Below, one piece after another: positions 9,133 through 49,841 of a DNA stretch of 64,000 nucleotides; within the stretch, counting starts at the first letter, position 1, and each line of letters opens with the position of its first letter. The position numbers and the translations under genes were made by a program. Source of the stretch: Bryoerythrophyllum caledonicum (lineage: Eukaryota; Streptophyta; Bryopsida; Pottiales; Pottiaceae); NCBI GenBank assembly GCA_963971425.1, contig OZ020520.1:8784553-8848552 (forward strand), written 5' to 3'. The notes beneath the pieces were generated by a model. The model ran no database searches. It was not told the origin of the DNA and saw nothing but the letters and a program-made list of their open reading frames with translations.

Positions 9133-9142
9133 CGAGTGCGAC
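9133..9142. repeat. Left target-site duplication of MULE-1
   Basis: CGAGTGCGAC directly precedes the element and is repeated exactly at 22,855-22,864, immediately after its right end. Ten bases fits the 8-11 bp duplications made by Mutator-like elements. Confidence 0.95.
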
Positions 9143-9193
9143 GGGGAATGCTATTATGTGAGCGTAGAGCGGTGAGCTGTGAGCGGTGAGCAG
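9143..9193 (+). repeat. Left terminal inverted repeat of MULE-1
   Basis: It starts GGGGAATGCTATTATGTGAG and continues with tandem GTGAGC-type heptamers ending in GTGAGCAG. It pairs with 22,804-22,854, whose inverted form starts GAGCGAAGCTATTTTGTGAG. Confidence 0.9.
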
Positions 9194-9339
9194 AGAATTT
9201 TAAGCGACGGCGAGATGAAAGCTCCAGAAATTTAGATTTTAGGGATTTATTACCGTGGGTTATCAGAGGTTGGATGGATTTTTTTAGTAATTAGAGGTTC
9301 TATAACCGTGGGATTTGTTTAAAGTGAGTGGGGCATTTT

Positions 9340-9620
9340 GACAATATATCTGTTGTATTGAAATTTTTCTACATTCTCTTTTCTTTTTCTTTTTCTCTTT
9401 CCATTATTTTCTTATCATTTTCTTTTAAATTTATTCTCTTCTTCTTCTTTTCCATTTTTACTCTTCTTTATTTTCTCCTTTTCTTCTTTTATATTTTATT
9501 TTTCTTTCTTTATTTTTAATAATGTTTTTACCATTTTTTCTTCTAACTTTTCTTGTTTAATATTTTATCTTCATTTCCTTTTTCTTCTCCTTTGTCTATA
9601 TTTTTATTTTATTTTTATTT
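9340..9620 (+). repeat. Pyrimidine-rich low-complexity tract
   Basis: About 280 bases consist almost entirely of T and C in TTTTC and TTCTTC runs. The apparent open frame through it is only a by-product of composition. It lies in the left subterminal part of MULE-1, downstream of the methyltransferase-like gene. Confidence 0.85.
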
Positions 9621-10101
9621 TCAATTATTTAAAAACATGTTTTTTGCAATGAGAAACCTCAAGCTATAATACTGGTTAGTGATAACCAGTACAACCTCCA
9701 TCCATATCATTTCTCTAGATAAGTCACCGTTACCGACTAATACAAAATGACTTTGATAAATACAATCCTTGCTAAACTAGAAATTCAAATTTGAGTGAAA
9801 TATCTTTGCTAATCATATACACACATCTAATTGACTAACTAAAACTAAATTCTCATAAATTCTACCAATTTATTTTCTTCATTATATTTAATACAGTAGA
9901 CACTATTTATGGCTCACAAATAAAACTATGAATAGTAGTAGGCCATATACAAAATAGATAATATATAAAATATAAATATAGAAACACATGAAATGATTGT
10001 TGGCCAAATTGCACATAAAACATATGCATGTCAGACTCACAAGTCAATGACACTGAAAATACAAATACTAGTAAAATCTCCAGAACAAATGAAGACCCTT
10101 C

Positions 10102-13100
10102 CTAACTACTATATCCCTCACTAACATCCCCTTCCGAAGCCTCAACATCCATAAATTGTTCCACACTGGAATGGAAAGCGCGGCGGGGAGAAGGAGCTGG
10201 AGAAGGAGTGTGCGTATATGCAATAGCCATCTCCTCGGCATAGCTTGGAAGCGTGAAAGCCTTTGCAAGGCTCGAACGAAAAGCTCTGCAAAACATACAG
10301 TTAGTGATCGGCTAACAAGTAGAGTATATGGATTACAAATATTTTAGAATGGATAAACAAAAAAAAACTTACGCACAGGCAAATCGATTGCGTTTTGGCT
10401 TCTTTGATGGGCGCTCTTCTAAGAGAGGCTGGCTAGCCTTCCTGACAGCCTTCATGGCAACCGCCGGAGGAAGAGAAGGCTTAGCAACCAAAGGTTGTAG
10501 GATTGTAGTGAAGATATCCAGATCATCTTCAAATGCAACTATGTGCCTACCAGTGGCTTGGCAGGCACGAATAGAGGCACCTACAAGGATTGGAAAACAT
10601 ATAAATAATCATATGATAATGGTTAACAAGAAATCATATTGCAAAAAAAATTAAAGAGTTCATGAAGGGTACCAGTGGAGGCCTTCCAATCCAACACGAT
10701 GTCACCAGGTTTTGTGAAGGACTCAATCAAGACTTGCATGAAAAGGGGATCTTTTTCCCGTGCACCACGCCAGGGCAAACTCCCTCGCATGAGTTGGTTC
10801 TTGACGGTGGTAAGATTGAAAAAAGTGTCAGTCTGCTCAACTTCGAGACCCACATCCGAAAGCTCGCGATTCTCTATGATAGAAAACTGTGATTGAATGG
10901 GTTCATCACGGACAAAGAGCTGGATCCAGAAGCGATGCGACTGCAATAGACCCAATCCATTAAAAATCACAAGTGGTAAACAAAATTCCATAAAAGACAA
11001 TGGAATTGGAAAATATAATGTACCGTGGTAGAGGGGAACTTTGGAGATGCCAAGGCAATATCATTAATTCCCCACCAATCTTTACAAAGGTGGAAGCTAT
11101 ACTGCTCCGCAACTTCTTCAACTTCGGAGCAGAGTGCACGATCATCGCAGTGGAAAAGAAGAATGGCGGCGTCATCATGCAAATATGCATCACCAAACTC
11201 AAAAATGGACTCTACATACCGCTCAGGTCGTGAATTCCATTGTGGAATTGTCGAAGGGGGCATTGAAATACCAGGCACTGGCAGATTCTCTGGAATGTCG
11301 GCGATGATGAGATCCAGACCGGTGTTCTTACAATGTGGAGAAGACACACGACGTGTTCGACCAGAACCAACCTGCATGAAACAAAAAGAAATGAGATGAA
11401 ATGATGAATAATCTGATGAATAGTCTAAATAACCAAAATAGGTAATATATATGAAATAATACTTGGGAAATAAATTGATGAAGCTTCTCCCATAATTGAT
11501 CAGGGCCTACTGGCCTACCAAGAGTCTCCATTACCGCAAAAAGGGACGCATTTTCCAACATCACCTCCAAAGGATGTATCTGTGCAACAGAGGTGGAAGC
11601 AGAGGGCAGCTGGCGGACTTTCCGTTGCCCAAGGAGCTCCTCAGTGGCTTGTGCAACACTTGAAGTGGTAGGGAACTGAGATGACGAGTGTGGTAACATA
11701 CCATGTTGGTCACTTATTGGGGCAGTGATATTGCTAGGTAATACTGAGAATGTAGGAAGACTAGAGGCCGCAGCAGTAGTGGCATCTCCTACGTCCTTCA
11801 CTTGTGCAACCTTGTCTACCGCCTCCTTCTGGGATTTCGTCAAAGATTTCTTCTTTTGAGAAGAACCGTCCCCACGAACATGAATTGGTTGAATGGAATC
11901 TTCCTCAAGAAGGTCGACAACGTCGGTAGCTCCAACAGGAGACACAGAAGCAGCATCAAGGCTATTCCTAATGTGTACCTCATCGTCCGGAGTATAGTTT
12001 GGTGAACAATCAAGGTACCAACACCCAGCTTGGAGGTGGTTGGCTGCGTACCTCTTTTGCTGCACTGGAGTATACATGCAAAGGTCGGAGGAAAGCTTGA
12101 TCCAAGCTTCAATATAGGGTGGGAGAGATTGAGACGGAATGGCATGTTTAGTGATGAGCTCCCGCATCATATATCTGGCAAAAGAGAAATATTTAGAAAG
12201 CTCAAAAAATTCAATGAAGTAAAAGGAGACAATTATAAATATATAAGGTTCATATATTACCGATATAACACCCGTCTCTCTGCCAATTGAGCTCCAGGAT
12301 GATCATCAAATATGGATCCCTTCATAAAAGGAGGGGTAGCATTTGGGTGGAGAAAAATTTGAAACGCTTTGTCCCAAAGCAAAATTCTCCAAGACTCCAC
12401 AAAATCTGAGGGCTTTTTGATGCCTCCAGATGCACTCCAATCAATATTACCCAATTCATCACCAGAAATCTCATTGAACTGCTTGACAACACGGTCTTCG
12501 ATCTGCAATGAAGATATATAATCAAGGAGTGGAATTATATGAAGTTACAGAAGAAGAAGAATATATGCAAGGAAATCACATTACCTGAGCCCAAAATGTG
12601 GCTTTGTTGAGCCAAGTATCAAGGTCTGCCTCCTTAAAATTGGCAGGAAGGAAGCGGTAGGCGGCTCGCCGCATAGGACCTGAATTCCACCACCGAAGCC
12701 ATTTGGCTTTAAATTCTGGCTCCACCACAGATGTTGCAATCTTTTGAAGCTTCTCAATCGTCATCTCCGGCTTGGAATTTGTACTATAGTGCAAATTGAT
12801 CTGTTGCACATAAAAAATATTTATGATATATGAGAATATATAAAATATGAAAAGTCATGAAAGACAATATTTGTAAATGACATGAAAGTCGAAATAGAGA
12901 TGAAATGTTCTAACCTGATTGAAGAAATCCTCCCCATTTCTAGGATTCGCCACAGTCAAGTACTTCAGAAAGTCCCTCTGCTTAATGACTTTAATGGCTT
13001 TTTCTGAAGCAGCCTGCATGACCCCCCACACGGCCTCCGCAGTCCTATCCTTCTCCTGAGTACGATCATTGTACTCACGGACAGCCTCATCAGAAGCACG

Positions 13101-16100
13101 GGATATGTCAGCCTGGGGATATGTTTCTATTATCAGCAACGAAGAATTAATCAAAAATTGAGTGAAATTATCTTGAAATCTCAAATTTGATAAAAGAAAA
13201 CGCACCCGATACAAAAAGGAGATGAAGACATCAACCGTGAGAGGGAACCACGTCGGCCTACTCTTTTTGATTTTCCCACAAGTTTTGTACTCAGTGGGAG
13301 TCAGCATACTACGAAAGTCCTCCAACGAAAGAGCTCCAAAATATCGCATCCGTGTCAATCGAGCAGGGAGACTAGTCTTGACATGATCATTTTGTGTGGA
13401 CCTAATTTGAAAGTGGTTAAAGAAAATAAATGAAATAATGGAATTTGAATAAATAGAAATTTCAAAAACATACCAGTTAACGTCGTTCATTGCATTCAGA
13501 AGAGGTCCAATGCGGCCTCGGGGGTCCAAGACTATGCAGATGACTGAGAAATGCCAGCGAGCCTCCTCAGAGTGATCGTTGTTGATTTTGCGCCACCAAG
13601 CGGAGAATCTGTGATTGCCATCCCAAACATAAAACATCTTACCTCTCAGATGAGCGTATAAAGGTGAAGACTCAAGCTGGGCGTCAAACCGGTCATTTGC
13701 ATCATGCCAATGATAACCCCAAGAAGTCCGATGCTCGTCTCCAACGTCAGTAGTGGTCTCCTTATCGTTGTAGATGGACACATAAAGAGCACGATCTGCA
13801 TCATCATATCCATCACAATCTTCAAAAAGAATCTCCAAGCGTCGGACATCCACCTCTTGAACTGGTCTAACTCGTGGCAAAGGTATGAGCCTGCATAATG
13901 GGATTCGTAACCCTGAATCCAAAGATCGCATGCTATTTAAAACGGAGTGATAGTCTCGCTTCTCCAACTTGCGCCGCAATCGCTCCCCTTCTTTAGCATC
14001 GTGGCAATTTGGTGGACACTTCACCGTTGTGCAGTCGTCAGAGTCGGCAACTGAATCCACCGAATCAGAGACCTGTATTCAAATATTAAAGAATTCACTA
14101 AATCATAGCAACACTAGATAATGCCAAAGCTTTCAAGATAACAAATCAAGGTAACACACATATCATGAAAGTAGAGTGGTCTTAATACATTTAAACATGG
14201 GGCATGAAATAGGATATCCATATCTAAATACTTAAGCTACGGTTAAACAATATGTTTCTCTAAGAAGCATCATAAACTGATCTACAAATACTATCAAGCG
14301 ATTATAAATTGAAGTAAATGCTAATTAGTTCAAGTTGTTGTATTATACTCATGCAAATATATAATTTTAAAAAACTTAGCTGGACAAGTTAAACGCAACA
14401 AAAATACAATTAACCGTGACAAAGTCAATCATGGCATCCGCAATTAATTCAACATGAGAATGACAGTTCATCAAATATAAATTGCCAATCGACTTGAATC
14501 CCAGCTACAAAATCTAAATCAATGAATCATGTTCTAAGTGTACAATTGAAGACGTAAAGACCATGATTCATGAACTTATATGTAATTCCTGTCTAAAATC
14601 TTCAAAGCAAAAGCAATCTTCATGCGGCATCCAAAGACAAATATCACAAAAATTAAAGCACAAACAAGGATATGGACGAAATTCAACTTGATAAATCAAC
14701 TTGATACATATTTCCATGAAGAAATGATAGGTTGCCTGATGAGGCTTCGGCGCCGAAGTCTCACCAGGCAACTCGTGAACTCTTGAGCACAGGATAATTT
14801 CCATTGAAAGTCGAACAAAATTGACATTATTTGAAATCGAACAAAAGCACAAAGAGCAACTCCATGACACAGAACCTTACAACCATATAAACGTAAATAT
14901 AATATGGACACAGTGCACAATTCAGAAAAGAGTATTAAGGCTTACCTCGGTCGCCAAGCAAGGGTTCGGGGCCGAAGGCTCCAGCAGCTCTCCGTCCTTT
15001 GTCATCTTGGCTCCCTCCTGTAACCAACAAGAGAACAATCCCGAAAGGTTAGTTAAAACATTTCGCATCGAGCGCACCAAGCGCATGAACAAGAGAGATA
15101 AATATCCAGAACCGAAATCGATTGAAAGACATACAGTTGTATCAACAGGAGGGTTCGGTGCCGAACTCTCTCCGAGATTGGGCTCCATCGTCAGTCTGTC
15201 AACTTCCTATTAACATCAAAAGTCCCACACAACACTCTCATGATGTGGATTACATAAATTTCCACTGAGTTTCCACTGATTTCGAATCTCTGTTGCATCT
15301 CAGAGTTGAGTCTAGCGATCCGACATCACTCATTTAGATCACTTGCACTTGTTACATGGGTGCTGCCCGAGCTGAGATCAACAATGGATCGCATACTCTG
15401 ACCGAGCTCACAGCAAGTCGATCTGTCTTGAACTCCGTATACTTCAACCACTGGAATCATCTGATGATAGTATCATGCAAGGTACACTGAGTTTTTATGC
15501 AAGGTCCGTTGTTGATTCCGTTCTCTGGCTACGTCTATAATCGATTCGGTTAACATGGTGTTGATAAAGTTTCATGATTCGTCAGAATTTGGATCAAGGC
15601 CACTTCTCACGACGGTGCTTGAGGTGATAATGTCTGTGTGCTTGGACAGAAGTGGTGAACGACATCTCGCATCGCAGCCTGTTGGAACGAGACCATCTCC
15701 AAGGAACTGAATTAGAACTCGGTGTCATTCATTGCTACTATTGTTCCCAAATCAGTGTAGAAACGACGTGCACTAATGCGCTAAGTCCGGGGACAGTTCT
15801 AAGAACCGAGTCTCCAGAACAAGCATATGAGGCGGTCGCAATAATTTGCCTGAACATCCTGGACAGCCTGAATATGCCTAAGCCAACCTGTATTGAATAT
15901 GACTAAATATGCCTGAACCATTTGGACTGCTGATGATCTAAACGCAACATAATCGGGACAGGAGGAGAGAAAGGTTTAGGGAGTCGTACAGAAAATGTCG
16001 GGACGGGAGAAGAGCTAGGTAGTCGGGACAGGATGTGAGGAAGTCGAAACAGTCTAAATAGTATCTAAAAGAGTCCAGTAGGAAGCCTCGTGCACAGGGA

Positions 16101-17676
16101 CTCCAGCTCTTCAGGTTTAGTCGGGCTTGTATGATCTAGGACCTAGGTAGTTGGCTCAAGTAGAACCGCATAGTTCGAGGATGAGGTAGTACTAGGGTTG
16201 AGAGTGAGGTAGTCGAAACCGAGAGAGAGGTTGACGAGACAGTTGGATCGGGAGTCACGAACGTTTGGACTACGTCGGTTGTATCTTCAGGAAAGTTCGA
16301 CTTTGAGTATGCAGCGAGAGCGCTCTAGATATTGAATTCAATCGCGAACCATCGACGTCACAGATTTCAAGCCCTAACTCGAAGCAAGTCCAAACATAGG
16401 TCAGATTTTATACCTCAACGCTCGGAGACGGTACTGCAGCCATTTCCTTGCTCGTGCTTCGCGATACCTGCCACACCCACAGAATGCGTCAGAATTTGCA
16501 CGAATACTTTCAGCAAGAGACCTTCAGTGCATCAACTCTGCGGCATGTGAGTACAAGAGACGAAGAGATCCGGTCAAGAAGCCGTCTTCGAAGAACGGCA
16601 GAGCTGGGCCTGGACAAGCGTTTACTTCCATCGTACTTCCATCGTGCATGAATAATCATCCAACCTCATTCGTTCACACGAAGAATATGAACAGCCTGTC
16701 CAGCCTGTACTTATCAAGAAATCACACTTTGAGTTCAATGACTACTGCCGCAAATATTCTTCTACCCTAGCAGTGGTCAGAACATGATGAATGAGATAGA
16801 TGATTTTTGCCTACGCACTAAATATCGATTTGAAAATAAGTTCTTCAAAGACAAGCCATAATCATGAACAAATACGCTCATGAAATGCAAGTACAAGGAT
16901 TTGGATATCTTTTGTACACCGAATACGACTCTATTTAATACTTTTGAAAACATGGCATTTGGGATCTTCATAGAGTATCTTCATAGATTTTTCTAGGTTC
17001 CTAAAATATACAGACACCTGCTACACTGTGAAACGTCAACCTAAACTTGTGACCCATGGATTTGATGCAGATGAGTATCTATGATCAATACTATTTCAAT
17101 TACGTATTTTGGTAAATGGTGAGGTGAGATTAGGGCCGTCCAATATACGCTAATAATGTATAGTGCAATTACGTCTGACTTGAGTATGAATAGTAAAAGC
17201 TAACCTCTTCTCCCGAAGGCCTTGTTTGTGGAGATGATATACTACCCGATATATTGTTGCGTTGAGCTTCGCTTATTTCCGCAAGTTTTGCCTGACAAAC
17301 CCACGTGAAAGAAGTTCAATAGATAGGCTCAAAGAACTTCGATATCTCAGAGTACACATAAAGCCTAGAAAAACATTTGAGAAGAAATTCAAATATAACT
17401 TCAATTCAACAAAGCTATTACCAATACCTGAGACAATGACTCTCCTTCAGTTTCTTCAATGTTTTCAAGTTCACAATCACTATCACGCTCGGCGGAGTTA
17501 AAGGACAACACCTTTGTGGTTTCGGAAATGTCCAACTGACTACAAAATGCCTTTCGCTTTCCCATCCTAGATCTCTGCAACTCCTTACGACTTGAAAACA
17601 AAAAACCTCGCTTCCTTCGTCTCCTCTTCTTCTCACACGATGGATCAAGAGATTGGTAGCTACACTTGCTAGTCAT
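10102..17676 (-). CDS. ParB-like/N4-N6 DNA methyltransferase-like protein carried by MULE-1 (14 exons, intact)
   Basis: Exons read from splice signals: 17,676-17,428; 17,291-17,205; 15,206-15,135; 15,017-14,946; 14,072-13,474; 13,401-13,206; 13,112-12,915; 12,800-12,585; 12,502-12,261; 12,174-11,463; 11,371-11,024; 10,940-10,673; 10,580-10,373; 10,285-10,102. All introns are GT-AG, and phases agree to give 1,216 codons ending in TAG. Residues about 20-25 are Lys/Arg-rich (KKRRRRKRG, a possible nuclear signal). A ParB-like block follows, with LPRVRPVQEVDVRRL and FYVWDGNHRFSAWW near residue 311. The C-terminus matches beta-class methyltransferases in order: LIIADIPENLPVPG (about 905, DPPY position), then REKDPLFMQVLIESFTKPGD, IVLDWKASTG and ACQATGRHIVAFE (motif I, about 1,081). 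DIPE instead of DPPY makes catalysis doubtful. MULE-2 conserves the same exons. A ParB-methylase fusion is known from phages and bacteria; function here is unknown. Confidence 0.8.
14710..14790 (-). other. Possible extra micro-exon or exon relic of the ParB-methyltransferase gene
   Basis: The minus strand encodes ELPGETSAPKPHQ, resembling the SAPNP motif of the two upstream 72 bp exons (15,206-15,135 and 15,017-14,946). The acceptor side is plausible, but the following donor would be GC rather than GT. It may be a third, decaying copy of the duplicated exon. The gene model above stays in frame without it. Confidence 0.35.
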
Positions 17677-18365
17677 CTGAGATATGCCAGATTTTCCATC
17701 TCACTCAACTTATCGAATTCGACAATTTGTGAAATGAAGATGTTGCTCATGAAAATCAACATAAATCCAATGACAACAGTACACTTCATTTCTGCTATAT
17801 TCAATAGAGTAACTTTTGTCAGAGCTTATCATAGCTCATTAGCTGTCACCCATTGTCATTTATCATTATTTTTAGATTTTTTAACAAATAATTTTATCAA
17901 CCTTTATGACCTTGTAAGACTTCAATCACATGCACTACACCTATTTTGTACATTATGTTTAGATTTTTTGAAGCACGCTTAGCCACCTTTCACGCTTACT
18001 AATAACAGAAGTGTATTTATGTTAATTCCAAAGTTCGACTACTACACCCTGATTTAGAATTATAATACCTCACTCATTTCAATTTCCTACAGGTAATTTA
18101 TCTATTTTGTGGTCAGGTAGATCGGAGAAGCTGTTTATGTCAAGAACGCCATCATTTTGAACATTGTCAGTCTCCGTTATGTGTTCTATCTAGCGCGACG
18201 CATAATACGGATCTAGACTAGCCCAAATTTATGTCATACTCATTATCATGCTGTTCATCCATAATTTGATAGAATATATTTATTGATGAGTTCTCAGTAT
18301 AAATCTAATCAGGTCGCTTGGTTTAACTCTCTCATTTCATACTTGGACTTCTAAAATTCTTCGTC
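17677..18365. promoter_or_regulatory. Divergent intergenic region of MULE-1, probable shared promoter
   Basis: This 0.7 kb gap separates the start codons of the two divergent genes. Parts near 18,150-18,280 can be aligned by eye with 45,160-45,290 of MULE-2, including the shared word CGGATCTAGACT. That suggests conserved promoter or leader sequence. I do not claim specific TATA or factor sites. Confidence 0.45.
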
Positions 18366-21300
18366 ATGTCGTTTGGTGATGTAGGTAGTTTAGGCACAGT
18401 TCTGATTCATGGTGATGGTCAAGAAATCCTGATTATGTTCCGTGTGTCTTTCGATGGTCATTGCTCTGTTACTGCGAGTCGACTTTCTTCTAGATTCCAT
18501 TTATTGGAGGCTTCAGTTTATGTTGATGAAGAAGTACGTGATATAGAGTCCGGAGTTGTTACTCACACCATAGGTCAAGAAGCCGTCACTACTAACGAAG
18601 GGAAATCCTGGCTGCTCAAGTGTGGAACTTTTAAAGTGTACGGCGTTAGAGATAATACGCACAGTTCATCCAGCCAAATGTTGGCATCTCGTGTCTCAAT
18701 TACAAGCAACCAACAGGATAGTGGTCCTCGGTCAATCAAAGTTGAGTCGGGTTCTGAAACAATTCACATTTTGAGTGATGACTCTGATACAGACACCCCT
18801 GTTCTCGTTCATCTAGAGAAACCAGATTCTACTCCATCTCTTGTTAATGTAGATTCTCCAGTACGTGATACCTCTCTTGACAATCGACCCCTTCATGTGA
18901 AACCTCCACATCTACCATCTAGATCCCCTCCAACGTCCATAGTAGTTTGTATAAGGAACCTAGGTGCCAGAAAGGGGTCAAAATCCATATTGTCGAGGGT
19001 TGATTTTTCAAAGGTCCCAATATCTACCGTGGATTGCTTGCCTCCAAGCTTTGATGGGGATTTCATTTTTGTGTTACCTCCAGTTTCAATGTTGTCTTCG
19101 CATTCACAAGCCAAGCTATTACAAGGCATGGACAAACGTCATGATGGTCATGCATGGACTCGTACTGTCACAACCCACATTCAGAATGACATGGGTCTGT
19201 CATTTAGAATGTCATCTTGTCTTGGGCACCTGCAGTGTGTCAATAACCAGTGCGCGTACCTTGATAGAATTCATAGGCCAACTCCCGCGAATGAGACCGA
19301 GTGGGATGGGTCATCGTATTTACGATTTGGAATTGACTCAAATCCTCCCAAGAATTCTACAGTCGTCTGCAAAATATGTCAGACTCCTCCTTCCTGTTTG
19401 AACGTTTGTTCAGCCAAGATATACTATATTTTAAGTCCCCCTCCGATGTCTCGTGCATGTGTCCATATTGGTTGTCACAAGCATCCAGTCAAAAAGGGTG
19501 TAGATAGGGAGTCTGAAGAGCGTCTTACGACCCTACTGAGTGACCAGGTAGAAAGAACACCCACTGCCACGAATTCAGCTATTATTTTAGAGGCCGGCAA
19601 GGACTTTCTAGCGTCTATTCTGCTAAATCTTGAAGGTGCGCTTGAGAAAAGTCTATCATCTGAGGAGTTGTTGCCCGTCCTTGAGACTTGCAAGAACTTG
19701 ACATCTCCAAATCTGCGCAACCAGGTCACATCTTTTCGGTACCTCCGGCGTTATGGAGTCATGGACAGTATTACGAAGCTCAGAGGATCCAGCAAATGGG
19801 CGTACTTGCAAAATAACATGTTCCCTGGACAAGGTTCTGAATCAGATAAGGTATTTGTTTTCAAGATGTCTGAACTTGGCCCAGGTAGTGGTGTTGACCT
19901 TGTTAGACGAATGCAATCTGATGGAGATTTGTGCAAATCATGGATGATGTTTGATCATGTCAAGCGTGTGAAGGGTTGGACCACGATGGCTTGTCATGTG
20001 TACGACTCATCATATTGTCGTGTCATGACCATAGCTGTTTGTGACATGCAATCTGAGGATGTTGAGGCCCAGCTTGTATTTTGGAAGAACTTGAATGTCG
20101 TTGCAGCACGACATGGCATTTTGAAACCTCAGTTTAAAGGATTTATGGCGGACAGTGCCCAAGCTAATTGGAATGCAGTGAGAATCATCTACGGCTCCGG
20201 TGATGCAAAGACCCCAATGGATAATCGTGAACGCACGTGCCTATTTCACTGGACGCAATCTCTGGAGAAGCATACAAAAGCTGACATTCGACCCGACCTA
20301 CAAGAGCAACACCGCTCTCTATGTAAACAGTACAAGAATGTTGCGTCACTGGAAGATGCAGAGAGGAAGTACCTTGCCATCCGGTCATGGTGGTTGTCAT
20401 CAGGCGCTACAACCGAAGAAGGTGTTCTTCGCCTCGACCTTTGGCTCGCATTTTGGCACTTTCGTTACCGCCAATGGGGTGGCTTTCTTGAGCTTGTAAG
20501 TGATGTCTTCTTTTCACGTTTGTTTTTTTTTAACTAACAGTTCGTATCGCTACGGTGGTTTTCTTACTAACGTTATGGTCTGTGAGTCAGGATCTAACAG
20601 AGGAGGAACTTGTGGAAATGCCTTCCTGCAATCTGGCTGAAACGGTGCACAACAAGTGGCTTTAACAATCCGGAAAACGAGGAAATGATCTCTATGTAGC
20701 AACGGTGGATGATTATGTCCGAGCATTTACGCAAGTTCTAGCATACTACCAGTTCTCCAAAGGCGAGCGTGCAGGCACGGGACCTTCTAAGGAAGATCTT
20801 CGTCTTCGACTTGCCCAACGTAATGCGAAAAGCTCCGGCGATCCGAAGAAGTTGCATGCGGCGTTAGAAGAGATGAGAGGCGCTTCGGAATTTTGCACAA
20901 GAGAGCCACACTTGGAAGGCGAAGAGGTTTTCTTCTCTGTAAAGCGGAAGGCAGATTTTCCCATAGGATCAGAGTTTGATTCACATCGTCCTGACAAAAT
21001 TAGCGTCTCTCGACCCTTGAAGAGAACACGCTACGGTGGCCACGCCACGATTGTCGATCTTACTGCAGAAGAGGTGCGTGTCCCTATTGTACAACTAAAT
21101 CCACCTGAAGTGCAGAGTAGTCCACATGAAGAGGCAACAACAACCGTCCCAATTCCATATCATACGAAGGCAGTCCTTGAGACATCTTGTAATGAGAAGG
21201 AATGGCATATAGCGCGGCTTTTGAAGACCTCAGCAAAAGCATGTTTTGCACAACATGCTATCACAAAAAAAAAATGCGTGGCAAAAATAGTTCAGTACAA

Positions 21301-22060
21301 CAAAGCTACTGCTGCTCCTACTTACACAGGCATGATGACGTCATACAAGAAAAACAAGGTAGAACAAATGCAGTTTTTCTTTTGCAATGATGATATTGAG
21401 CGTTGTGTGAAGGGCACTAGGCGCAAGTGGGTTGTTGCTAAACCGCATGTGCCAGAGATTTGGCCCGTAAAGCTTGGTACTAATCTTACACAAGAAGAAG
21501 TGTTTGCTCTCGAACATGCTGGATTTCGCTTGGCTGAACGACCGGCCTTTGCTCCGCATCAGTTGTTCAGTGAATTTAATGGTCTCATCAATTTTGATGA
21601 CTTCCCGGCACCAATTTCCCCGGACGAGTATCCAAAGCGCAGATTTGGGAAGAACATTCGACGCAACTCCAAGGCACCAACAACAAAGCATTCCAACAGC
21701 TACGCATCAGCGCTTTCAATTAATGGTAAAATTCTCAAAGCCACTCTGCTTCCTTCTCCAGCACTAGGTTCAATTGTATCATTTGAGTCTCGTCAAGGAT
21801 CCAAATCATCCCAGTATCTCATCACTGTCAGTCAATTTCCAAGTTGTGATTGTCCTTTCTTTAAGGATATGGCAGCAAAGTCATTAGGTAAGCGTGGTCA
21901 ATGGGTAAATTGCAAACATATGTATTATGTTTTTACCCGGCTTTGTAATCTGCTTCCTGAAGTAGATCAGTTTATCCACGCACCTAGTTTCAGCTACAAC
22001 GAGATCAAACGCGTGTTAGAAAACTTGCTACCACACTGTCACAATGTAAGAACTGTGTGA
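18366..22060 (+). pseudogene. MULE-type transposase with SWIM zinc finger (MULE-1, one premature stop)
   Basis: Two exons, 18,366-20,495 and 20,591-22,060, join with GT-AG borders into 1,200 codons including the final stop. The DDE-type core is seen around MMFDHVKRVKGWTTMACHVY and FMADSAQANWNAVRIIYG, followed by TCLFHWTQSLEKH, the Cys-His pair typical of MULE transposases. Near residues 1,130-1,155 is a SWIM zinc finger, CDCPFF then CKHMYYVF (C-x-C...C-x-H). A TAA at 20,663-20,665 interrupts the second exon where MULE-2 has CAA (Gln), consistent with one C-to-T change. The start matches the equivalent Met in MULE-2, giving first exons of identical length (2,130 bp). The protein would cut and join element ends; this copy is probably inactive or truncated. 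Confidence 0.88.
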
Positions 22061-22584
22061 CAAATAGTTCTACTGTACTTCTCATTCCTTTTATAACAGA
22101 AATGGCGGTGAGACTAAAAGGGCCACCGTGTAATATTGTCGTACATGCGTCTCCCCTACTGTATTATTATTATCACCGATATTCTCTTACAAAGTATCAT
22201 CCTTCTTATTAAAAAAAACCAAAAATGATGTATGACTTAATTTCAAACCTAATTAGATAAAAAATTCTTCTGTATCTACCATTGATTTCATTCTATATGT
22301 TCCCAAATTCTAGTCTGCACTTCTAATACTGTCGAGGTAAGGGAGAATTAGATTGTACTCAAAAAGTTAAGTTCATCATATATGCAATCTTCCCCGCAGT
22401 ATATATTTCTACCTTGTGAGATGGAACAACATGGCCAAACTTCAACTTTATATTGTAACAATTATTTTTTTGATGGTACGATGTTAAAAAAGATAGTCTT
22501 TAAAACATGCATGATTTTAAGTACATTCGGGCGCCATATAATATTTCTTTCATTCCTTGTGTGCGTAACTGATTACAAATATTT

Positions 22585-22680
22585 TCATTTCCACGGTTAT
22601 AGGCTCATATATTCTTCCACAACATGAGGCCAAAGTTTTAACCAATCTTTTTTTTCACGGTTATAGGTTCATTCATTTTC
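22585..22680. repeat. Subterminal CCACGGTTATAGG motifs of MULE-1
   Basis: TTCCACGGTTATAGG occurs near 22,590 and a variant near 22,655. Inverted versions (TATAACCGTGGGA) occur near 9,251 and 9,300 at the other end. MULE-2 has one near 49,629 and a form reading CCTATAGCCGTGGATGA near 35,502. They are candidates for transposase recognition sites. Confidence 0.5.
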
Positions 22681-22803
22681 CAAAATACTGACCAAATTAT
22701 GAACCCAAAAAAGCCAAACTTCTTATTTTTATGTACATCAGCAAATTCTTGAAACAAATATCCATGTATTTTAAGAAAAATCCTGCCAAAAACCTTAATT
22801 TTT

Positions 22804-22854
22804 CTGCTCACCGCTCACCGCTCACGGCTTTCTGCTCACAAAATAGCTTCGCTC
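22804..22854 (-). repeat. Right terminal inverted repeat of MULE-1
   Basis: It begins with CTGCTCACCGCTCACCGCTC and ends AATAGCTTCGCTC, followed by the 10 bp duplication at 22,855-22,864. It is the inverted partner of 9,143-9,193. Confidence 0.9.
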
Positions 22855-23547
22855 CGAGTGCGACCAGTGACGGTTCCTAACCCTTTCGCGGAATCCTGTA
22901 GAGACCTGGATCCCTCACCTTTTCCTCTCCACCCGGCTCAGGCTTCACAAAGGTTACACAACCATTCAAAATGGGGTACGTCCATGACAAGGACCACTTT
23001 AGAGCTCACACAAACCAGGATAGATAGGTGTCAAGATAGAGGGACACAAACTTAATATTTGAAAGTGGGCAGCGCATCTCATACAACCTTAGGAAGTGAA
23101 ATCCATAGTTGGGTGCTTGCAAATCCCCTCTCTAACACTAAGATAACGGGAACCGGGTTCTTGCTGCAGCGGTGGCCTCGCAAGGCGTCCGACCTACACA
23201 CAAAAATCCTAAATTGCCCGGGTCCGCAATCTTTCCTGCTCTCACAATTAGGTCGACTAACAAGACCCTAACAGCCTTGGAACTAACAACTAAATACTCT
23301 CCCATCGGGAGTCAAAACACAAAACCCAAGAACCCATGTTCAAAACGGGCACTGACACTTGTCTACCACCTCCTACCTAAATGCGACTAGATCTGGAAGT
23401 TATGGATCTGATCCACCTTTTCCGGAACAGGTTCCGGATCCGGGTAAAACCCTAATAACTGGGTCACCGTTGTGACCGTTCTAACTCTACCTCTAGATTT
23501 CTAACCCTCCACGGCTAGTTTCTGGGGCACAAAGCAAGAGAGCTATC

Positions 23548-35283: not shown

Positions 35284-35293
35284 GCGTCATTCC
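35284..35293. repeat. Left target-site duplication of MULE-2
   Basis: GCGTCATTCC precedes the element and recurs exactly at 49,832-49,841. Removing the element plus one copy restores the reading frame of the LINE RT. Confidence 0.95.
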
Positions 35294-35337
35294 GGGGAAT
35301 GCTATTTTGTGAGCAGTGAGCGGTGAGCAGTGAGCAG
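35294..35337 (+). repeat. Left terminal inverted repeat of MULE-2
   Basis: GGGGAATGCTATTTTGTGAG is followed by tandem CAGTGAGCGGTGAGCAGTGA heptamer repeats. It pairs with 49,781-49,831 and matches the left end of MULE-1. Confidence 0.9.
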
Positions 35338-38300
35338 AAATAATGGGGTTTAGAGGAAAAAAAAGTGAGTTTTAAAACAAGTTTGTGTGCTAAAGATATT
35401 TTTTTAGCTCACAAGAGGGTGTATGGCCATGGATCATTTGGTGCTATAATGAGTATGATGGATAAAAATAAAAGGATGTCTTGCTGTAGTTTCATAAAAT
35501 ACCCTATAGCCGTGGATGAAAGGCTTCGCATTCTCATTATTAGAGTAATCCACGATTTGGTGTGTTTGCATGATATATACTAGTGTACTTGAATGTTGAT
35601 TAAAAGAATTGGAATTTTGGATCTAGAGTTTAGGGTTTACGAAATGAAGATTGTATCAATATTTTCCAGTTTTACTTAGTCCTACAAAAACTACGTCTTC
35701 ATAGTTCTCTATGCGTATTTCTAATGAGATTTTCAATAGTTTTATAGTATTGACAAAGTCATGTATTCATTTACTCACTATAAAACAAAATCGTGGATTT
35801 TACATCAAATGTATTTTTTGTATGTATGGTTTAGGGTACGAACAATATAGTGTACGTCGTTCAGTGTATATTTTATAATCCGACCTTGCCTTGAATATGC
35901 TACTAAATTCTGATGCATTACTCAATGAAAAACTAGTTGACTAATCTATCTAACAATTTCGTACGCAGTTCAAAATTGCCATAAGTTTAAAGTTGTGATT
36001 CATGTGGTATATTATTCCGTGTCTAGATAGTTTAGAAGATGGTAGCAAAATAAGAGGCATGTTTCAATTTAAACTTGAATGGGTACAATTAGAATGTTTA
36101 CAAGAAGAGTATTCAGTTTGGGTTGGCTTTAGTTGGAATGGCAAATAAGATCTTACTGAAGGAGAAATTGACAATGAGTACACAAAACAACTACTCCGTG
36201 TCATCTGAACTACCCTCGCTTCCATTACCAACCTCTGCCTCTACCTCCACATAACGGAGTACATCTTTGTGATACCTCTGCCGCTGACGTGTTGGTGGAG
36301 GAGATTTCATAGTTGATTGTATCTCCACGGTTCTCTTTGCCTAGATAGGTAAAGAAAAGGTAGAATCTGGAGATGACAATAGCGGCAAAGCTCTGCAAAG
36401 AAACAGAGCAACAATGAGGTGCAAAGTTTATAATGATAACGTACAACGATTTAGAAAACAACAAATTAAATTTGAACTTGGGTTGAACTTACGTACAAGA
36501 AGGAATACGACTGCTTTTTTGCTTCTTCTGTGCTAGTTCCCCTTGAGTACGTCGCAAGTTCTTTCTCCTCTCCACTACCAATTCCGTAGCTGACTTTGGA
36601 ATTAGCGGTGCGAGCAATGACTGGAAAATCTCTGAGTTTTCTTCGAAGGCCAAGACATGGAGGCCCATTGATTGACACACCCAAATAGTTGGACCTAGGT
36701 AGTACATTGAGAAGAAAAATTAGAAGTGAATAATAAAAAAAAAATAGTTTACGGCATATATAAAGGAATGCTTACCTGTAGAGGCATTCCAATCTAAGAC
36801 AATATCCCACTTTTTGTGAGGGATTCAAGAATGGTCATCATGAGATCAACCGCTTTCTCACGAGCCCCTCGCCATGGTGAGTCGCCGTGCATGAGCTGTG
36901 AAGCAACGTTCACCGGATTGAACAAGATGTCGAGCTCAACAAGTGGAGAGCGAACTGAGAATTTCGAGACCATGGGAGCGTCACGAACAAATAGCTGAAC
37001 ACAGAATCTTGTCCCTTGCAAAAGAAACAATATATATAATTATGGATTATATACACCAAAAAGAAGCTTAAGATTAAAGCTAATAATTATCAAAAAATGG
37101 TTTAGAGTACTTACTGTCGCAGAAGGATCTCGAGGCAAAGCTAAAGGCAACTCGTTCAATGCCCACCAATCGATGAGTAGCTTGTAGTCGTATGTAGAAG
37201 CACATTCATCAATTTCAAGTTGTAGATCTCTATCATTCGGATGAAGCAGAAGCAAAGCAGCGTTGTCATGAAGATAAGTGTCAGCAAACTCAAAAATAGT
37301 ATCAATATAATTATCTGGCCTCGAATTCCATACAGGAATGGCATCAATAGATTGAGAGATCCCAGGTACCGGTAAATTCTCTGGAATGTCAGCTACAATT
37401 AGATCCAATCCAGTGTGTTTGCAACTGTCATTTGAAACTTTCCGCGTTCTACCTGCACCAACCTGCAGACAAAAAATCCAATGGGTGTAAAGAAATGCAG
37501 CTCAGTGTAATGGAGGGAATCCTATAAACAAATAAGGATAACAAATACTAACCTTTGAAATGAATTGATGTAGCTGCTCCCATAGCTGGGGTGGGCCTCC
37601 TGCCTCCGAGAGAGACTGCATGATAGAAAATAGTGATATATTTTTGATAAAACACTCTGATGAGACAAGTGGCAACGGAGCAACGGAAGACTCAGAAAAT
37701 TGAAACTGTCGTTGCTTCCGCTGTTGGACTTCCATCCTTGTAACTTCAACTAGGCTTGAACCAGCAGCTTGAGAAGATGCCACGCCTGGAGGAGAGTTCC
37801 ATGCCAAGACCTCGTTCCTAATCATACCTGTTGAATCAGGCATCAAGGACAGATTTAAGGTGTCTCTCTCAGCAAGGGCGGCTGTAACTGCTACTTGAAT
37901 CTCAGCCTTCTTTGCACCCTCCGCATCTCTGATGAGCTTTTCCTTGTCAGCTTTCGAAAGCCGCTTCTTCTTACCGGAGGTCTCCTCTTGAGCTAACACT
38001 GGTGGGGATGAAGACTGTTCTACAATTTCAAACTCCAGCTCCCCTGGTAGAGATGAAACATGCAGTATTGAAACCTCTGTAAGACCATGAAATAGCTCAT
38101 TCTCCGCATCCGGAACAAAATTGGCGGAGCATTCCAAGTACCATCCACCACCATGTAAAACTTGAGTGGAATACCTCTTCTTCTGAACCTCTGTGAAGAT
38201 GCACAAGTCTGATGAAGGCTGAATCCAAGTTGAAAGAAATGAAGGACATAGTGGTTGCTGAAGCGCGTTCTTTGGTATGAGCTCCCTTACAATGTACTTG

Positions 38301-41269
38301 TAGAAATAAATTTTGAGTAATTAAGCCACTCAAAATCTAAATATATTTGAACTAAAATATAAAAGTATAGAATACAAGAGATAAACCTATATAGAAGCCG
38401 TTTAATGGCGAGGTCAGCTCCGGGCAACTCATCAAACTTTGTATTCTTCTGAAAGGGTGGTTTCAAACCCGGATGCACAATAACCATGAATGCTTTCTCC
38501 CATAATATCATGCGCCATTATTCCACATATTTGGAGGGCTTTTCAATACCAGATGAAGCATCCCAATTCACTGAAATTGTGCCCGTTGCACAAATTTCTT
38601 CAAAATGGGCGATGAATTTGTCCTCCAACTGGTATCATAAATTCCAAAAGTTAAACCCCCAACTTACAGCTCAAGATATAACAGACTTCAAGTGACATGA
38701 AAATGAAGTCAATGTGTACCTGAGCCCAAAATGTTGCACGATTGAGGAAGGAATCAAGAGCGCCATCTTTAAACTGCGTAGCTGGAGCGCGGAAAGCTGA
38801 CCGAACCATTGAAGGAGAGTTCCAGAAATGCAACCACCTGGCTTTGAAAGGAGGCTCCACCGCGACGGTTGCCACCTTTTGTAATTTTTCGATGGCCATT
38901 TCAGTCTTCTTGAAGTGACTGAAATGAAAATTGATCTGCATATAATGATAAATTCAAAATCAAATAACTATAGAATGAAGTAAACGATTGATAGATTTAT
39001 GAAATTATAGAATAGAGGACACACAATAATACATCACACAATAGTATAGAAACTCTACCTCATCAAAGAAGTCCTCGCCGTTCTTGGGATTGGCGACTGC
39101 AAGGTATTTCTGAAAGTCCTTGCTCTTGATTGACTTCACGGTGTTCGCTGCAGCATCGCTCATGACCCTCCATACTCCTTCTGCACTTCTATCCTCCGGC
39201 GTGGTCTTCTTCTCATAATCAGTTCCCGCCTCATCAGATGCGCGAGCAATATCTTGCTGCAATCATAACAAAATTAGTTTGTTTTAGGAAAAAACTAAAA
39301 ATTGGTTTCAATGCCCGTAAATATGAATGTGTATGAAGTGCCATCAATACCCGGTATAAGAACGATATAAAAACATCAACCGTTAACGGAAACCATGCTG
39401 CAAGAGACTACCGCACTTTCAAGCACGTCTTGAATTCCTCCGATGTCAAAAGATCCTTGAAATCTTCCAACCTGAGCCCACCATAATACCGAATGCGCTG
39501 AAGTTTTGCTGGAAGGCTGGTCTTCACAAAATCGTTTTGGGTTGACCTGTAAAATCATATGTATTGAATTAGTTCAATAAAGACGTTAATGTCATAGAAG
39601 ACGTCAAATTATGCATGGCTTAAAGGATAAATGTTAGAGAATTTACCAATTCACGTCGTGCATGCAGTTGAGTAGCATTGATATTCGTCCGGTCGGGTTT
39701 AGTACAATGCATTGAACAGCATAATGCCAATGTGGGTCGTCGCAATGCTGTTCTGAAATAAAATGCCACCACGCGTTGTACCTGTGATTTCCGTCCCACA
39801 CAAAAAACATTTTGCCACTAAATGCAGCAAACTGTGGATTAGACTTCAACATCTCCTCAAACTTCTCATTTGCTGCAATCCAATGTGCATCCCACGTTGA
39901 TATGATGTGAGGGGTAACATCACGTGTCAGCTCGTGGTCATCATAGATGGAAATGTAGAATGCACGATCTCCATCAATATAGCCTCCCTCAAAGCGTTTC
40001 TGCAAAGCACAGACGTCAATTTCTTGAATTGGCTGCACTCGAGGTAGAGCAATCATCCTGCAGAGGGGCACGTGAAAGGGAGCCTTCGTAACGCGCATGC
40101 TCTCTAGGACTATCACAAAATTCGACTTCTGATGAAGTCGTCTAGCTTTTTCGCCCTCAAAAGAACTTATCAATCCATCTGGGCACTTTGAAGACAAATC
40201 CTTAGAGTCCGTCATTGGAACGTTCTACAAAACGAAATCAAAATACTTAGGAGATATCATTTCAATGGGAGAAAATATGCTTGCATGAGATTATAAACGT
40301 GGCGAACCTGAATATCGGGGCCCTCATCTGGATCCTCGCGGTCCGGAGTGAATTCATGTTCCTCCTAGTTCAAGCAAAAACAATAGAAATTAGAGAAATT
40401 GTTCCTTCAAGTTAAAAATCTCTGTTCAAAATTGAACCTTGAACGTGAACAAAAAGCCATTGTTAAAAACACTACATTCTCTACTTGTGACATAGTGGAC
40501 AGAGAAGAGAACCAAAAGTAAGAGTGCAGCATAATAATATAGTACACTATCAACCCGTGTTTATGAGACTTGTATAGATTTGCAAACCCATAACCCAATG
40601 ACGAATCCACAAATAAATTGACTAGTGCAGCAATAAAGCTCCTCGAATTTGAGAAGGGAAAATGTCTTGATTTGTATTGTATTGGCACGCACCCTATAAT
40701 ATTATGTAGCACTTACTTAATAATGTTTTACACCTTCGAACACTATCGGTCTAGAAATTTAGATGGTTTTAGGGTCTACACTTAACACCAGCATGTTCTA
40801 TTATGCCACCTTCCTCATACAAAAGGCATTTTTCATGCATACAGAACAGCTATACAACATTACAATATGAATGAAATGTAAACTTGGCAGTGTCACTATC
40901 CTATGGTCACTTTTAGTGAAGTGCATAATAAATTGGGCTTTTGAAAGAATACCTCATCATTTGGTGCTGAAGGTAATGGAGGTGAACTTTCCACCATTTC
41001 ATCCCGTGTGTTTTTCTACAGCAAGGAAATATAAATGAAGGAAAGCAATTAGAGATTTAGCAAAATGAACATAAAAGTATTTAATTGTCACGTATGAAGT
41101 AACAGAGATTTCCACAAATAACTGCACATGAAAAGGAACTACCTTATGCACACAATAAATGTTGAAATCAGATATTGCTCATTGACACCATGCATGCAAG
41201 TTTTGTGAAGGACGTTCATTAACATCTATCTGCAATATTCCAAAGCGTATGCACATGAACTTGAAAGTT

Positions 41270-42275
41270 TATGAGGTAGGCCTCGCATACGAGGCCTTCA
41301 GGATTACAACACATCTTGTCCAACACTGATACGTTACATGTTCTTCTGACTTAACTCGAGCAAATGCACAAGCTGTTAAAAGCAGCCGAGGGAGGCCTCG
41401 CATACGAGGCCAATAGATTTTACACGAACCCGGTACTACAAGCCAAAAAAGAATGCGAGAACTTAAAGCTCTCAAAAGCTGCCAATGTAAGCCTCGTATA
41501 CGAGGCCTGGAGGTTTTGCTCGAATCCGGTCCTACACTGCCGAGAAACAATCATAATTGGGACTGCGGCAGTAACGAAGATTTTCAGAACAAGGTCCTAC
41601 AAGCTACCGAGGGAGGCCTCGTATACGAGGGCTGCAGGATACGTAACAATTCCGGTCCATCACCGCAGATTTCACGTTCATGATCGGGACTTGCACCCTC
41701 ACGAAGATTTTTAGAACAAGGTCCAACAAGCTACTGAGGGAGGCCTCGTGTACGAGGGCTGCAGCATAGGTAACAAATCCGGTCCTTCACTGTAGCTTTC
41801 ACGTTCATGATCGGAACTTGCGCACTTACGAAGAACATATGCACATCGTCCTTCAAGCTGCCAAGGGAGGCCTCGTATACGAGGCCTCGAGGATACAACA
41901 CGAATCCGGTCCTTAACTGCAGATTTCACGTTCATGATCGAGACTTGCGCACTTACGAAGAACATTTGCACATCGTCCTTCAAGCTGCCAAGGGAGGCCT
42001 CGTATACGAGGCCTCGAGGACATGACACGAATCTGGTCCTTCACTGCAGATTTCACGTTCATGATCGGGACTTGCGCACTTTCGATTCTCGAAGATTTTC
42101 ATAACAAGGTCCTACAAGCTACCGAGGGAGGCCTCGTGTACGAGGGCTCCAGGATGCGTAACAATTCCGGTCCTTCACTACAGCTTTCACGTTCATGATC
42201 GAGACTTGCGCACCTACGAAGAACATTTGCACATCGTCCTTCAAGCTGCCAAGGGAGGCCTCGTATACGAGGCCA
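41270..42275 (+). repeat. Satellite array of about 128 bp units with GAGGCCTCGTATACGAGGCC cores
   Basis: About nine copies of a palindromic core, GGCCTCGTATACGAGGCC or variants, occur near 41,285, 41,400, 41,498, 41,622, 41,750, 41,877, 42,005, 42,135 and 42,265. The later units are spaced about 125-131 bp. Between cores the sequence TTCACGTTCATGATCGGGAC is repeated. An isolated core lies near 42,870. The array is in the large intron (about 41,010-44,171) of the MULE-2 ParB-methyltransferase gene. Short frames through it are repeat artefacts. Confidence 0.92.
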
Positions 42276-42279
42276 CCAT

Positions 42280-44170
42280 AATCCGACACTAATCCGGTCC
42301 TTCACTGCCGAATAGCTGGAACAGGGATAATCATTGAATAAATATCGACAACAGTTCTACAGCGAAGCTAGCAACTCAGTACAATGATTGAGTGCTCACA
42401 CCTGAAATTCAACATAGAGAGGCTACAGTGCTGGGCTCCCTGCAACTATAGTAGCTATGAATTGGCTTAGAGAAAGTACGTGCAGAGCCCCTGATCGGAG
42501 ATTGTAGAGACCTTCAAGATTCCGGTTCAGGTGATCATGACCGCTTGGTTCATGGCATTATTTTTTTATAGTGATGTCTAAAATGCAGTGGAGATTCTCG
42601 AGCTCTAACTTAACAGACACAAAGGAGCTCGCGCGCTACTTTCATTAGTCAAGAATCTCCGCAGTTTGAGATTTAATTCTGCCAGCTTGCTTCAGCTACG
42701 AGATAGGAGCGAGGTAATAATTTGTGAAGCCGAAAGCATTGTCAAGTAGTGCAGTACACAGGCTTGTACTTGTATTTCGTACAATTATCAAGTTATAAAG
42801 TCACTGCTCTCCAAGGTATCAATTTCAAGATGTGTACAGTCCTAGTGACTGCCGAGAGAGGCCTCGCATACGAGGCCTGCAGGTCATACTCCAATCCTGT
42901 CCATAACTGATGCGAAACGATCAAGACCTACACTGCCGAAAGTCGATGAGCACATGTTGTTGATTTCTTGATTTAGTCTTTGTTCATATCTTGTTTACGA
43001 CTGGCATGTTAAAAACTTGACCGGCATGTCCAAAACTAAGTCAAATTTGACCAAAAATTTGACTGGCATGTCCAAAACTGCCACTTTCAAAAAGAGACAT
43101 GAAAATCACATCTTAAAGTGAATTTTGGATTTTCAACCGTAAGATTTTAAAAAAGACATCTTTATAAACATGCCATAAAATTTTGGTTGCAATCCACCGC
43201 ACGGATTGATAGATTTTAGTGTTTGAAGTCAAAACAATGGTTCAAGTTCTTCCCTGCGTTGAGTAGATCAGCAGACTTTGACTTCACTTTGTATCAAATT
43301 TTTGCATTGTACAAGGTCTAAATCCTATACCATTGTCTTAAGCATGATGTTATTTCCCAGCACACCTATTTTTAGAGGTAAAAAAGGGGTGTAGCATATT
43401 CAAAACAAGTGTGCAAGGAGTGGAGGTTCAAAAATTGTCATTTCACGTTTTATTTTTTTGTGAACTACGTATGTATTCAAATGATAATCCAAACGGTCAA
43501 AAAGAAGGTTTTCACCACATATTGTTGTTGGAAAAATAAAAAGTGAAAAATATGAAGATCTCCAGGTTTTATGTAGAAAAGATAAAGTTTTTTTCCCCCG
43601 TTGCCCGACAATGTGTGAAAGTGTTTGACTTGGAATATAATGCCTTTTTACACTAAAGACAAGATTTTTTTTGAAAATTTCCGAAAAAGGAAATATTCTT
43701 TATATGTGTGAAAATCTCAATGTCAATAGAAACTTTTGTCAAAATTTTTGGAGGTGCCCGGTCTCCCCACTTTTGGCTTTAAGTGGTACTAACTTTCAAA
43801 CCACAAATCCAAAAAATAAAATAAAAATATGTCCACGAAGCTCTTATCAGAGGCAATCTAGAATAAAAATTTCAGAGAAAAAGGATTTTTTTTCGAATTT
43901 TAGGAACCTGCCCAAAATCAGAAATCCCCCCAAAGGAGACTCTGGTCCTTTAGGGGTTAATTAAGGCACATGCAAATATTGCGCTATATCATGATGCATC
44001 TAATTTTGAACTTGTGACACAATAACTTGTTGATAATAAGTAAAAATTATCAATGTATTCTTCATTACTTAACTTCATGGGATTGGAGAACCGATATTAG
44101 GGCAATGTTCTATTATAACCGAATGAGAATTGAAACTGATTTTGTATGGGACAAGATTACAAACGCCCAC
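42280..44170. other. Remainder of the large intron of the MULE-2 minus-strand gene
   Basis: Apart from one satellite core near 42,870, I see only AT-rich non-coding DNA. There is a short theme around GACTGGCATGTCCAAAACT near 43,010-43,080. No coding frame is supported; the 97-residue plus-strand frame at 43,671 has no recognisable content. Confidence 0.4.
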
Positions 44171-49780: not shown

Positions 49781-49831
49781 CTGCTCACCGCTCACCGCTC
49801 ACCACTTTCTGCTCACAAAATAGCTTCGCTC
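49781..49831 (-). repeat. Right terminal inverted repeat of MULE-2
   Basis: It starts CTGCTCACCGCTCACCGCTC and ends AATAGCTTCGCTC directly before the duplication at 49,832-49,841. It is nearly identical to the right end of MULE-1. Confidence 0.9.
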
Positions 49832-49841
49832 GCGTCATTCC

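Follow-up and report, generated by a model that had tools for sequence, protein, structure and literature searches.

A methyltransferase-like accessory gene in MULE-like transposons of a moss, a candidate binder of family-specific palindromes

The window analysed here comprises 64,000 nucleotides of contig OZ020520.1 from the moss Bryoerythrophyllum caledonicum (assembly GCA_963971425.1, positions 8,784,553 to 8,848,552). It holds two transposons, elements A and B, that resemble Mutator-like elements (MULEs), each with a transposase gene running rightward and an accessory gene running leftward (Table 1); the accessory product joins a putative ParB-like region to a domain related to N4/N6 DNA methyltransferases. 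On balance we favour the view that this gene encodes a sequence-specific DNA-binding protein of the MULE-like lineage, one that would have lost methylation activity and would bind palindromes of its own family.

Results

The methyltransferase-like domain

The fold and class of the C-terminal half, a beta-class N4/N6 methyltransferase domain, are well supported by matches to solved structures, by the match of the family consensus to PF01555 and by profile-profile comparison, all built on a ten-member family alignment in which member B is shortened. The family profile matched DpnA over the C-terminal motifs (E 6.4e-9) and CcrM over nearly the whole domain (E 8.5e-8), the DPPY of CcrM falling opposite DxPE of the family. 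The family consensus covered positions 30-218 of the 221 in PF01555 at 36.8 bits, above the curated cut-off of 26.7 and consistent with membership of this N4/N6 DNA methyltransferase domain, while the window protein alone scored 22.1-23.8 bits, under the cut-off. Two hand-spliced relatives, one of them an approximate sequence, reached 28.2 and 36.8 bits, and nine of the ten aligned members matched at E up to 10, the tenth being without that part. Comparison with fetched phage beta-class enzymes gave a probability of 98.4% and a score of 104.9, the best of 100 column shuffles scoring 20.6. The initial annotation, made from the sequence alone, had proposed such a C-terminus and named hits to PF01555 as the support to look for; these results agree with it.

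Beta-class enzymes carry a canonical catalytic motif IV, (D/N/S)PP(Y/F/W), with proline at position 2 and an aromatic residue at position 4. This hallmark of an active enzyme was found in none of the ten aligned members and in none of the 18 loci with four readable residues (20 were examined). Many of the 18 are near copies, and the observation therefore amounts to seven spellings rather than 18 events: DIPE (the motif in both window copies), DLPE, DIPK, DVPE, DFPD, DLKD and, solely in a group designated 'a9', DQPF. The substitution of DIPE for DPPY, remarked on in the initial annotation, thus extends to a replaced motif in 18/18 readable loci, and binding of DNA without methylation is therefore likely. 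Other positions are strongly kept across the family, namely the first D of motif IV, PWRG..EK, VLD, the last G of motif I and RH; in the S-adenosylmethionine (SAM)-binding motif I (D.F.G.G-like) the leading D and last G are mostly kept and the first G has become S or A. The domain appears from these alignments to be changed yet preserved. Precedent for a methyltransferase fold that lost its catalytic motif but was retained as a nucleic-acid-binding platform, as proposed here, is provided by METTL14-type methyl-dead subunits, which differ in belonging to the MT-A70 family, acting on RNA and working with an active partner.

That the protein is an active N4/N6 methyltransferase, marking the transposon despite its altered motif, is improbable. 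The SAM-side residues VLD, the last G of motif I and RH are partly kept under purifying selection, and the 'a9' group reads DQPF, both of which favour activity; against it, the transposase-linked families have I, L, F or V at position 2 and E, D or K at position 4, where the canonical motif has proline and an aromatic residue. The 'a9' group (L009-L016 and a9 itself, L029) is multi-copy, reads DQPF where readable and may be the least changed methyltransferase. The one 20-kb 'a9' stretch fetched contains no transposase and has long LINE-like frames upstream.

An accessory gene that accompanies the transposase

The 437-Mb genome was searched for relatives. A DNA search with one exon returned at least 40 copies at 97-100% identity, and a PF01555 search, in which 150 places were scored, put 138 of them at E up to 10 and eight over the curated cut-off; the weak places need not all be relatives of the accessory gene. 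Ten divergent loci were fetched, 20 kb each, and the accessory gene was matched in nine, at 24-56% identity piece by piece. The tenth, c4_26.5, gave no match, looked by eye like another methyltransferase and was dropped from the counts. A transposase like that of element A lies on the opposite strand in seven of the nine gene loci, and none was found within the fetched stretches at c9_24.1 and 'a9'. Trees of gene and transposase share the same topology in the eight elements where both genes are well covered (Mantel r 0.95, 0/5000 permutations); c1_15.3 was excluded from this comparison because its gene match is partial. The accessory gene changes faster than its partner, the identity between A and B being 0.79 in the transposase versus 0.48 in the accessory gene.

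The accessory gene is under purifying selection. The ratio of nonsynonymous to synonymous substitution rates (dN/dS) between c4 and c6 is 0.115 in the ParB-like part (83 codons) and 0.154 in the methyltransferase part (231 codons), and that between c12 and c9_19 is 0.138 (208 codons, dS 1.35); the comparison of A with B is saturated. Because a transposase occurs at 7/9 loci, the two trees are shared and dN/dS is low, the accessory gene is a long-standing partner that regularly accompanies the transposase in divergent families. The initial proposal of a captured bacterial or phage-type methylase is, as a recent event in one transposon, not supported. Nor was a close relative found in the collections searched: the protein collection gave no homolog of the single protein at E up to 1 and none of a four-member alignment at E up to 0.01, where scoring covered the 7,991 candidates with most words in common, and in viral contigs a pattern matched ten stretches, none confirmed as a relative.

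The exon model

The predicted model of the accessory gene of element A, as given by the initial annotation, was reproduced exactly: 14 exons in one open frame of 3,651 nt (1,216 codons and a stop), with 13/13 introns beginning GT and ending AG. The exons, on the minus strand, are 17428-17676, 17205-17291, 15135-15206, 14946-15017, 13474-14072, 13206-13401, 12915-13112, 12585-12800, 12261-12502, 11463-12174, 11024-11371, 10673-10940, 10373-10580 and 10102-10285, and the spliced product contains all of the motifs previously listed (DGNHR, DIPE, REK...KPGD, LDWKASTG and GRHIVAFE). Ten core exons (1,056 codons) were rebuilt first, from open frames and splice sites, while the four N-terminal exons were taken from a longer automatic prediction whose other small exons were dropped. 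As matching the earlier count of 1,216 codons was part of that choice, these four exons are not independent proof, and the predicted gene is least certain in its small exons (14946-15206). The core exons recur in divergent families, and an N-terminus resembling that of A precedes copy B. Small repeated segments encoding SAPNP-like peptides at 14731-15206 hold the palindromes of A, and a further segment of this type, in a model intron within the same interval, resembles a decayed third repeat.

A stretch of 542 core codons was compared between the window and seven other genomic copies. Codon positions 1, 2 and 3 showed 15/3603, 22/3602 and 58/3603 differences, respectively, and the modelled introns 54/2961; since position 3 and introns differ more, the predicted gene is more than a chance frame. 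Four of the seven copies (L001, L003, L005 and L006) are free of stops and gaps, and three (L004, L007 and L008) are disrupted. Those three disruptions, in the part of the predicted gene examined, are what favours a gene-model artefact or a decayed, functionless passenger, a reading that we consider highly improbable given the low dN/dS, the co-inheritance of gene and transposase and the contrast in exon and intron rates among genomic copies. The accessory gene of element B is itself probably decayed: it looks so in places, its predicted model omitting parts of conserved exons.

The ParB-like half

The N-terminal half is likely but unproven to be ParB-like, an assignment based on a motif and the order of strands. 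Exon 13474-14072 carries IPLCR-LPRVRP and W/C-DGNHR..AW, in which DGNHR is invariant in eight aligned members. No ParB match was obtained in Pfam, NCBIfam or PDB sequences. Two of the eight members matched a ParB-like family in PHROG weakly (best E 0.11), the family consensus did not, and one of eight weakly matched DUF1015 (E 0.063). A phage search for ParB with the family consensus gave only three matches, at E 6. Profile-profile comparison with 12 phage ParB-like domains aligned only the DGNHR stretch, at 2.4% with 1/100 shuffles higher; leaving out an insertion of about 40 residues added the preceding strand, the probability being still 14.7% with 0/100 shuffles higher. In the first comparison one shuffle of 100 gave a freak score of 135, seen again in the insertion-free one. 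Two predicted structures of the exon (pLDDT 34 and 38) were too poor for a fold search. The ParB reading given initially is thus weakly supported, at the level of motif and strand order.

Family-specific palindromes

Each of several families has a palindrome cluster of its own, located within the accessory gene or upstream of it. In the matching region the palindrome is TCTCGGNNCCGAGA in c12 and c9_19, ATCGGNNCCGAT in c2, TTCGGATCCGAA in c15 and TGCCGCNNGCGGCA in c4 and c6; that of element B is CCTCGTATACGAGG, that of element A STTCGGCNCCGAAS, with three sites and close to the c15 motif, and that of 'a9' TGTTCTGTNCCGAACA, which is imperfect. At up to one mismatch, own-family counts were 7 (c12), 7 (c9_19), 10 (c2), 7 (c15), 10 (B), 7 (c4), 7 (c6), 3 (A) and 10 ('a9'), and 101 kb of control sequence held 0 sites of the c12/c9_19 motif, 4 of c2, 1 each of c15 and B, 0 of c4/c6, 1 of A and 0 of 'a9'. 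Matches between families comprised five one-mismatch c4/c6 sites in c9_24.1, six sites of the A motif in 'a9' and two each way between c12 and c2. In element B the ten copies compare with 0.09 expected, and 0/100 shuffles reached ten; they sit between the N-terminal exons and the ParB-like exon, six within a 127-bp tandem array, in a region read here as intron, though the automatic model placed small exons there.

The motifs were also examined in relatives of the elements in which they were found, which makes for less circular tests. The c12 motif occurs at seven sites in c9_19, where the best flank identity is 0.33-0.47 over 80 bp and 0/600 arm-shuffled palindromes equal this result, and at nine sites in L070, a locus fetched afterwards that is ~90% identical to c9_19 (0/~500 shuffles). 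A c15 copy fetched alongside L070 is 99.4% identical and therefore adds little. The c6 motif occurs at seven sites in c4. Twelve of 23 c12-motif sites have unlike flanks; the arms carry 1.41-1.82 bits and the variable 2-bp centre 0.34 and 0.49 bits, the two bases that follow the palindrome on its 3' side show partial conservation (0.78 and 1.0 bits), and 5/28 flank columns exceed 0.6 bits. Genome-wide, TCTCGGNNCCGAGA has 980 sites versus 21 for the pattern read backwards. The 50 sites listed, all on contig C1, group into ten clusters, five of which are located 3-7.5 kb away from a PF01555 place, on its 5' side (0/10000 random placements). In a looser scan the best 12-bp palindrome, at up to two mismatches, beat the best of 20 shuffles in 8/10 elements, only narrowly in c9_19 and c9_24.1. 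When sites with similar flanks are removed, at least two unlike-flank sites with exact 6-bp arms are left in 6/10 elements.

A number of points weigh against a methyl-dead protein that binds these palindromes. The ParB identity of the N-terminal half is unproven, and the 'a9' group, which keeps an aromatic residue (DQPF), might be an active enzyme. The own-element counts are circular because the motifs were found in those elements, as is the arm conservation because the sites were picked by their arms. The sites shared by c6 and c4 have mostly similar flanks (0.66-0.80 in 6/7), and five of the ten clusters have no nearby methyltransferase place among the matches listed. In the looser scan neither A nor c6 had a palindrome that surpassed the 20 shuffles; in c4 and c6 the top-ranking palindrome was another one, lying in c4 in a 67-bp array. 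Part of the sites are tandem duplicates, B keeping 2/7 and c15 3/6 once similar flanks are removed; A has only three sites, two of them within predicted exons; and the five matches in c9_24.1 each carry a mismatch, several lying in one tandem array. Palindrome clusters also occur in two of ten control segments, one beside a DUF7869 frame and one upstream of c9_24.1.

Furthermore, both genes share one tree, so that motif divergence follows both and a transposase or host factor could own the sites. This, with the clusters in two control segments outside the family, is consistent with palindromes that serve the transposase or a host factor while the methyltransferase-like protein has its role elsewhere, perhaps as a partner or cofactor of the transposase. 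We judge this main rival reading unlikely, if worth keeping in view. Transposase sites are expected near element ends; against this reading, none of the ten sites of B is near them, and the interval from the 5' end of the transposase to the ParB-like exon, 28-42% of the stretch examined, holds 43 of the 58 own-motif sites.

The control segment upstream of c9_24.1 (L040) holds an eighth palindrome, CGGAGATCTCCG, with ten sites in one count and eight dispersed copies in another. Frames amid these dispersed copies include FYIIGGQHTVAA, which resembles a different ParB-like motif; a Pfam scan of one such frame gave no match.

Proposed function and known systems

In the function favoured here, that of a sequence-specific binder of own-family palindromes, the protein would be nuclear and, probably as a dimer, would bind the palindromes through the ParB-like part and/or the remodelled methyltransferase part. 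Once bound it would keep the element expressible, in the manner of VANC in VANDAL elements, by countering silencing or by activation; it might alternatively control the two divergent genes of the element. It would not methylate DNA. A more detailed scheme, which we put forward tentatively and think rather doubtful, is that a eukaryotic transposon lineage remade a ParB-methyltransferase as a methyl-dead system like ParB/parS, which loads at family-specific palindromes within its own element and spreads, or recruits activators, against silencing. Protein and palindrome would then evolve together, and each family would release no element but its own.

The closest arrangement is Sola1-1_Ec32 of Ectocarpus, which has a gene with ParB-like and N4/N6 methyltransferase domains, similar genes being present in green and red algal transposons (PMC12477816). 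There too a two-domain accessory gene (1,104 amino acids versus 1,216 here) lies within a large DNA transposon, opposite in strand to the transposase. The transposase lineage is different, DNA modification is suggested for that system whereas the catalytic motif is gone here, and palindromic sites like those described above are not mentioned in the available text. VANC of the Arabidopsis VANDAL MULEs, also an extra MULE gene, binds a short motif that forms clusters in non-coding regions and introns of its own, and its targets diverge along with the protein (PMC5735166). That text does not call VANC a methyltransferase or ParB relative, and the VANC motif is a 9-mer, in contrast to the palindromes here. 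By analogy, the accessory protein perhaps has a VANC-like anti-silencing role. Phage fusions of ParB with N6/N4 methyltransferase have the same order of the two domains (PMC12704722); the five fetched differ in length (404-530 amino acids) and in keeping the canonical DPPY in 4/5, and show no significant sequence link to the accessory gene in the ParB part. By analogy only, a precedent for relief of silencing by a ParB relative acting at specific DNA sites is the transcriptional antisilencer VirB, which is related to ParB (PMC10770331), although it is bacterial and counters H-NS.

Accessory ParB-methyltransferase genes of algal transposons are thus already in print, as far as that text goes, while the dead catalytic motif and the palindromes look new: our searches of the open-access literature (PubMed Central) turned up no MULE reported to carry a ParB-methyltransferase, no dead version and no matching palindromes. 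If the proposal is true, transposons use methyltransferase folds as DNA binders and not only as writers. Several natural candidate pairs of protein and palindrome within one genome would allow the evolution of DNA specificity to be studied, and transposon anti-silencing in this MULE-like lineage would become directly testable.

The two elements and their surroundings

Carriage of the accessory gene by a MULE-like element, as first annotated, is supported by the ends of A and B, which are similar inverted sequences bordered in each by perfect 10-bp target-site duplications, within the 8-11 bp described for MULEs in the available text (PMC6446971). The inverted terminal repeats of A (~9150-9200 and 22797-22847) have arms of 51 nt that are 84% complementary. 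The transposase of A has, by eye only, a SWIM-like CxC...CxH motif at its C-terminus; no Pfam MULE or SWIM profile matched it or parts of the consensus, and the elements are therefore named MULE-like.

Table 1. Features of elements A and B, in window coordinates
Feature	Position	Strand	Remarks
MULE-like element A	9143..22854		13.7 kb; end sequences read
Target-site duplication of A, left	9133..9142		CGAGTGCGAC
Target-site duplication of A, right	22855..22864		CGAGTGCGAC
Accessory gene of A	10102..17676	-	14 exons, 1,216 codons
First exon	17428..17676	-	basic KKRRRRKR, which we take to be like a nuclear localization signal; comparable N-terminus in copy B
Exon with putative ParB-like region	13474..14072	-	IPLCRLIPLPRVRP ... 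DGNHR; motif-level support only
Methyltransferase-like domain, first part	11024..11371	-	DIPE at motif IV position; aligned to CcrM DPPY region and phage enzymes
Methyltransferase-like domain, second part	10673..10940	-	WRG.REK, KPGDIVLDWKASTG; PF01555
Methyltransferase-like domain, end and basic tail	10373..10580	-	GRHIVAFE; profile match
Palindrome of A	14745..14758		CTTCGGCGCCGAAG, in model intron
Palindrome variant of A	14964..14977		CTTCGGCCCCGAAC, inside predicted small exon
Palindrome variant of A	15153..15166		GTTCGGCACCGAAC, inside predicted small exon
Transposase of A	18372..22057	+	two large exons (open reading frames), divergent from accessory gene
MULE-like element B	35294..49831		10-bp duplications GCGTCATTCC at 35284-35293 and 49832-49841
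Accessory gene of B	36191..44690 (approximate)	-	relative of A, aligned parts 48-59% identical
Palindromes of B	41281..42875		10 copies of CCTCGTATACGAGG, up to one mismatch
Transposase of B	45364..49083	+	open reading frames; identity 0.79 to transposase of A

Elsewhere in the window, frames at 567-4568 (minus strand) that look by eye like Gypsy pol adjoin a C5 cytosine methyltransferase (PF00145, 33.1 bits, cut-off 22), an arrangement that the locus c4_26.5 (L037/L038) resembles by eye; charophyte retrotransposons bearing DNMT are known from the available text (PMC5890265). A 1,025-codon frame at 56093-59167 (minus strand) with DUF7869 (140.6 bits) is probably the gene of another DNA transposon, and a palindrome array around CTCGANTCGAG lies beside it at 59249-59657. 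A TTTAGGG-like array, suggestive of the green plant lineage, occupies 60288-60390.

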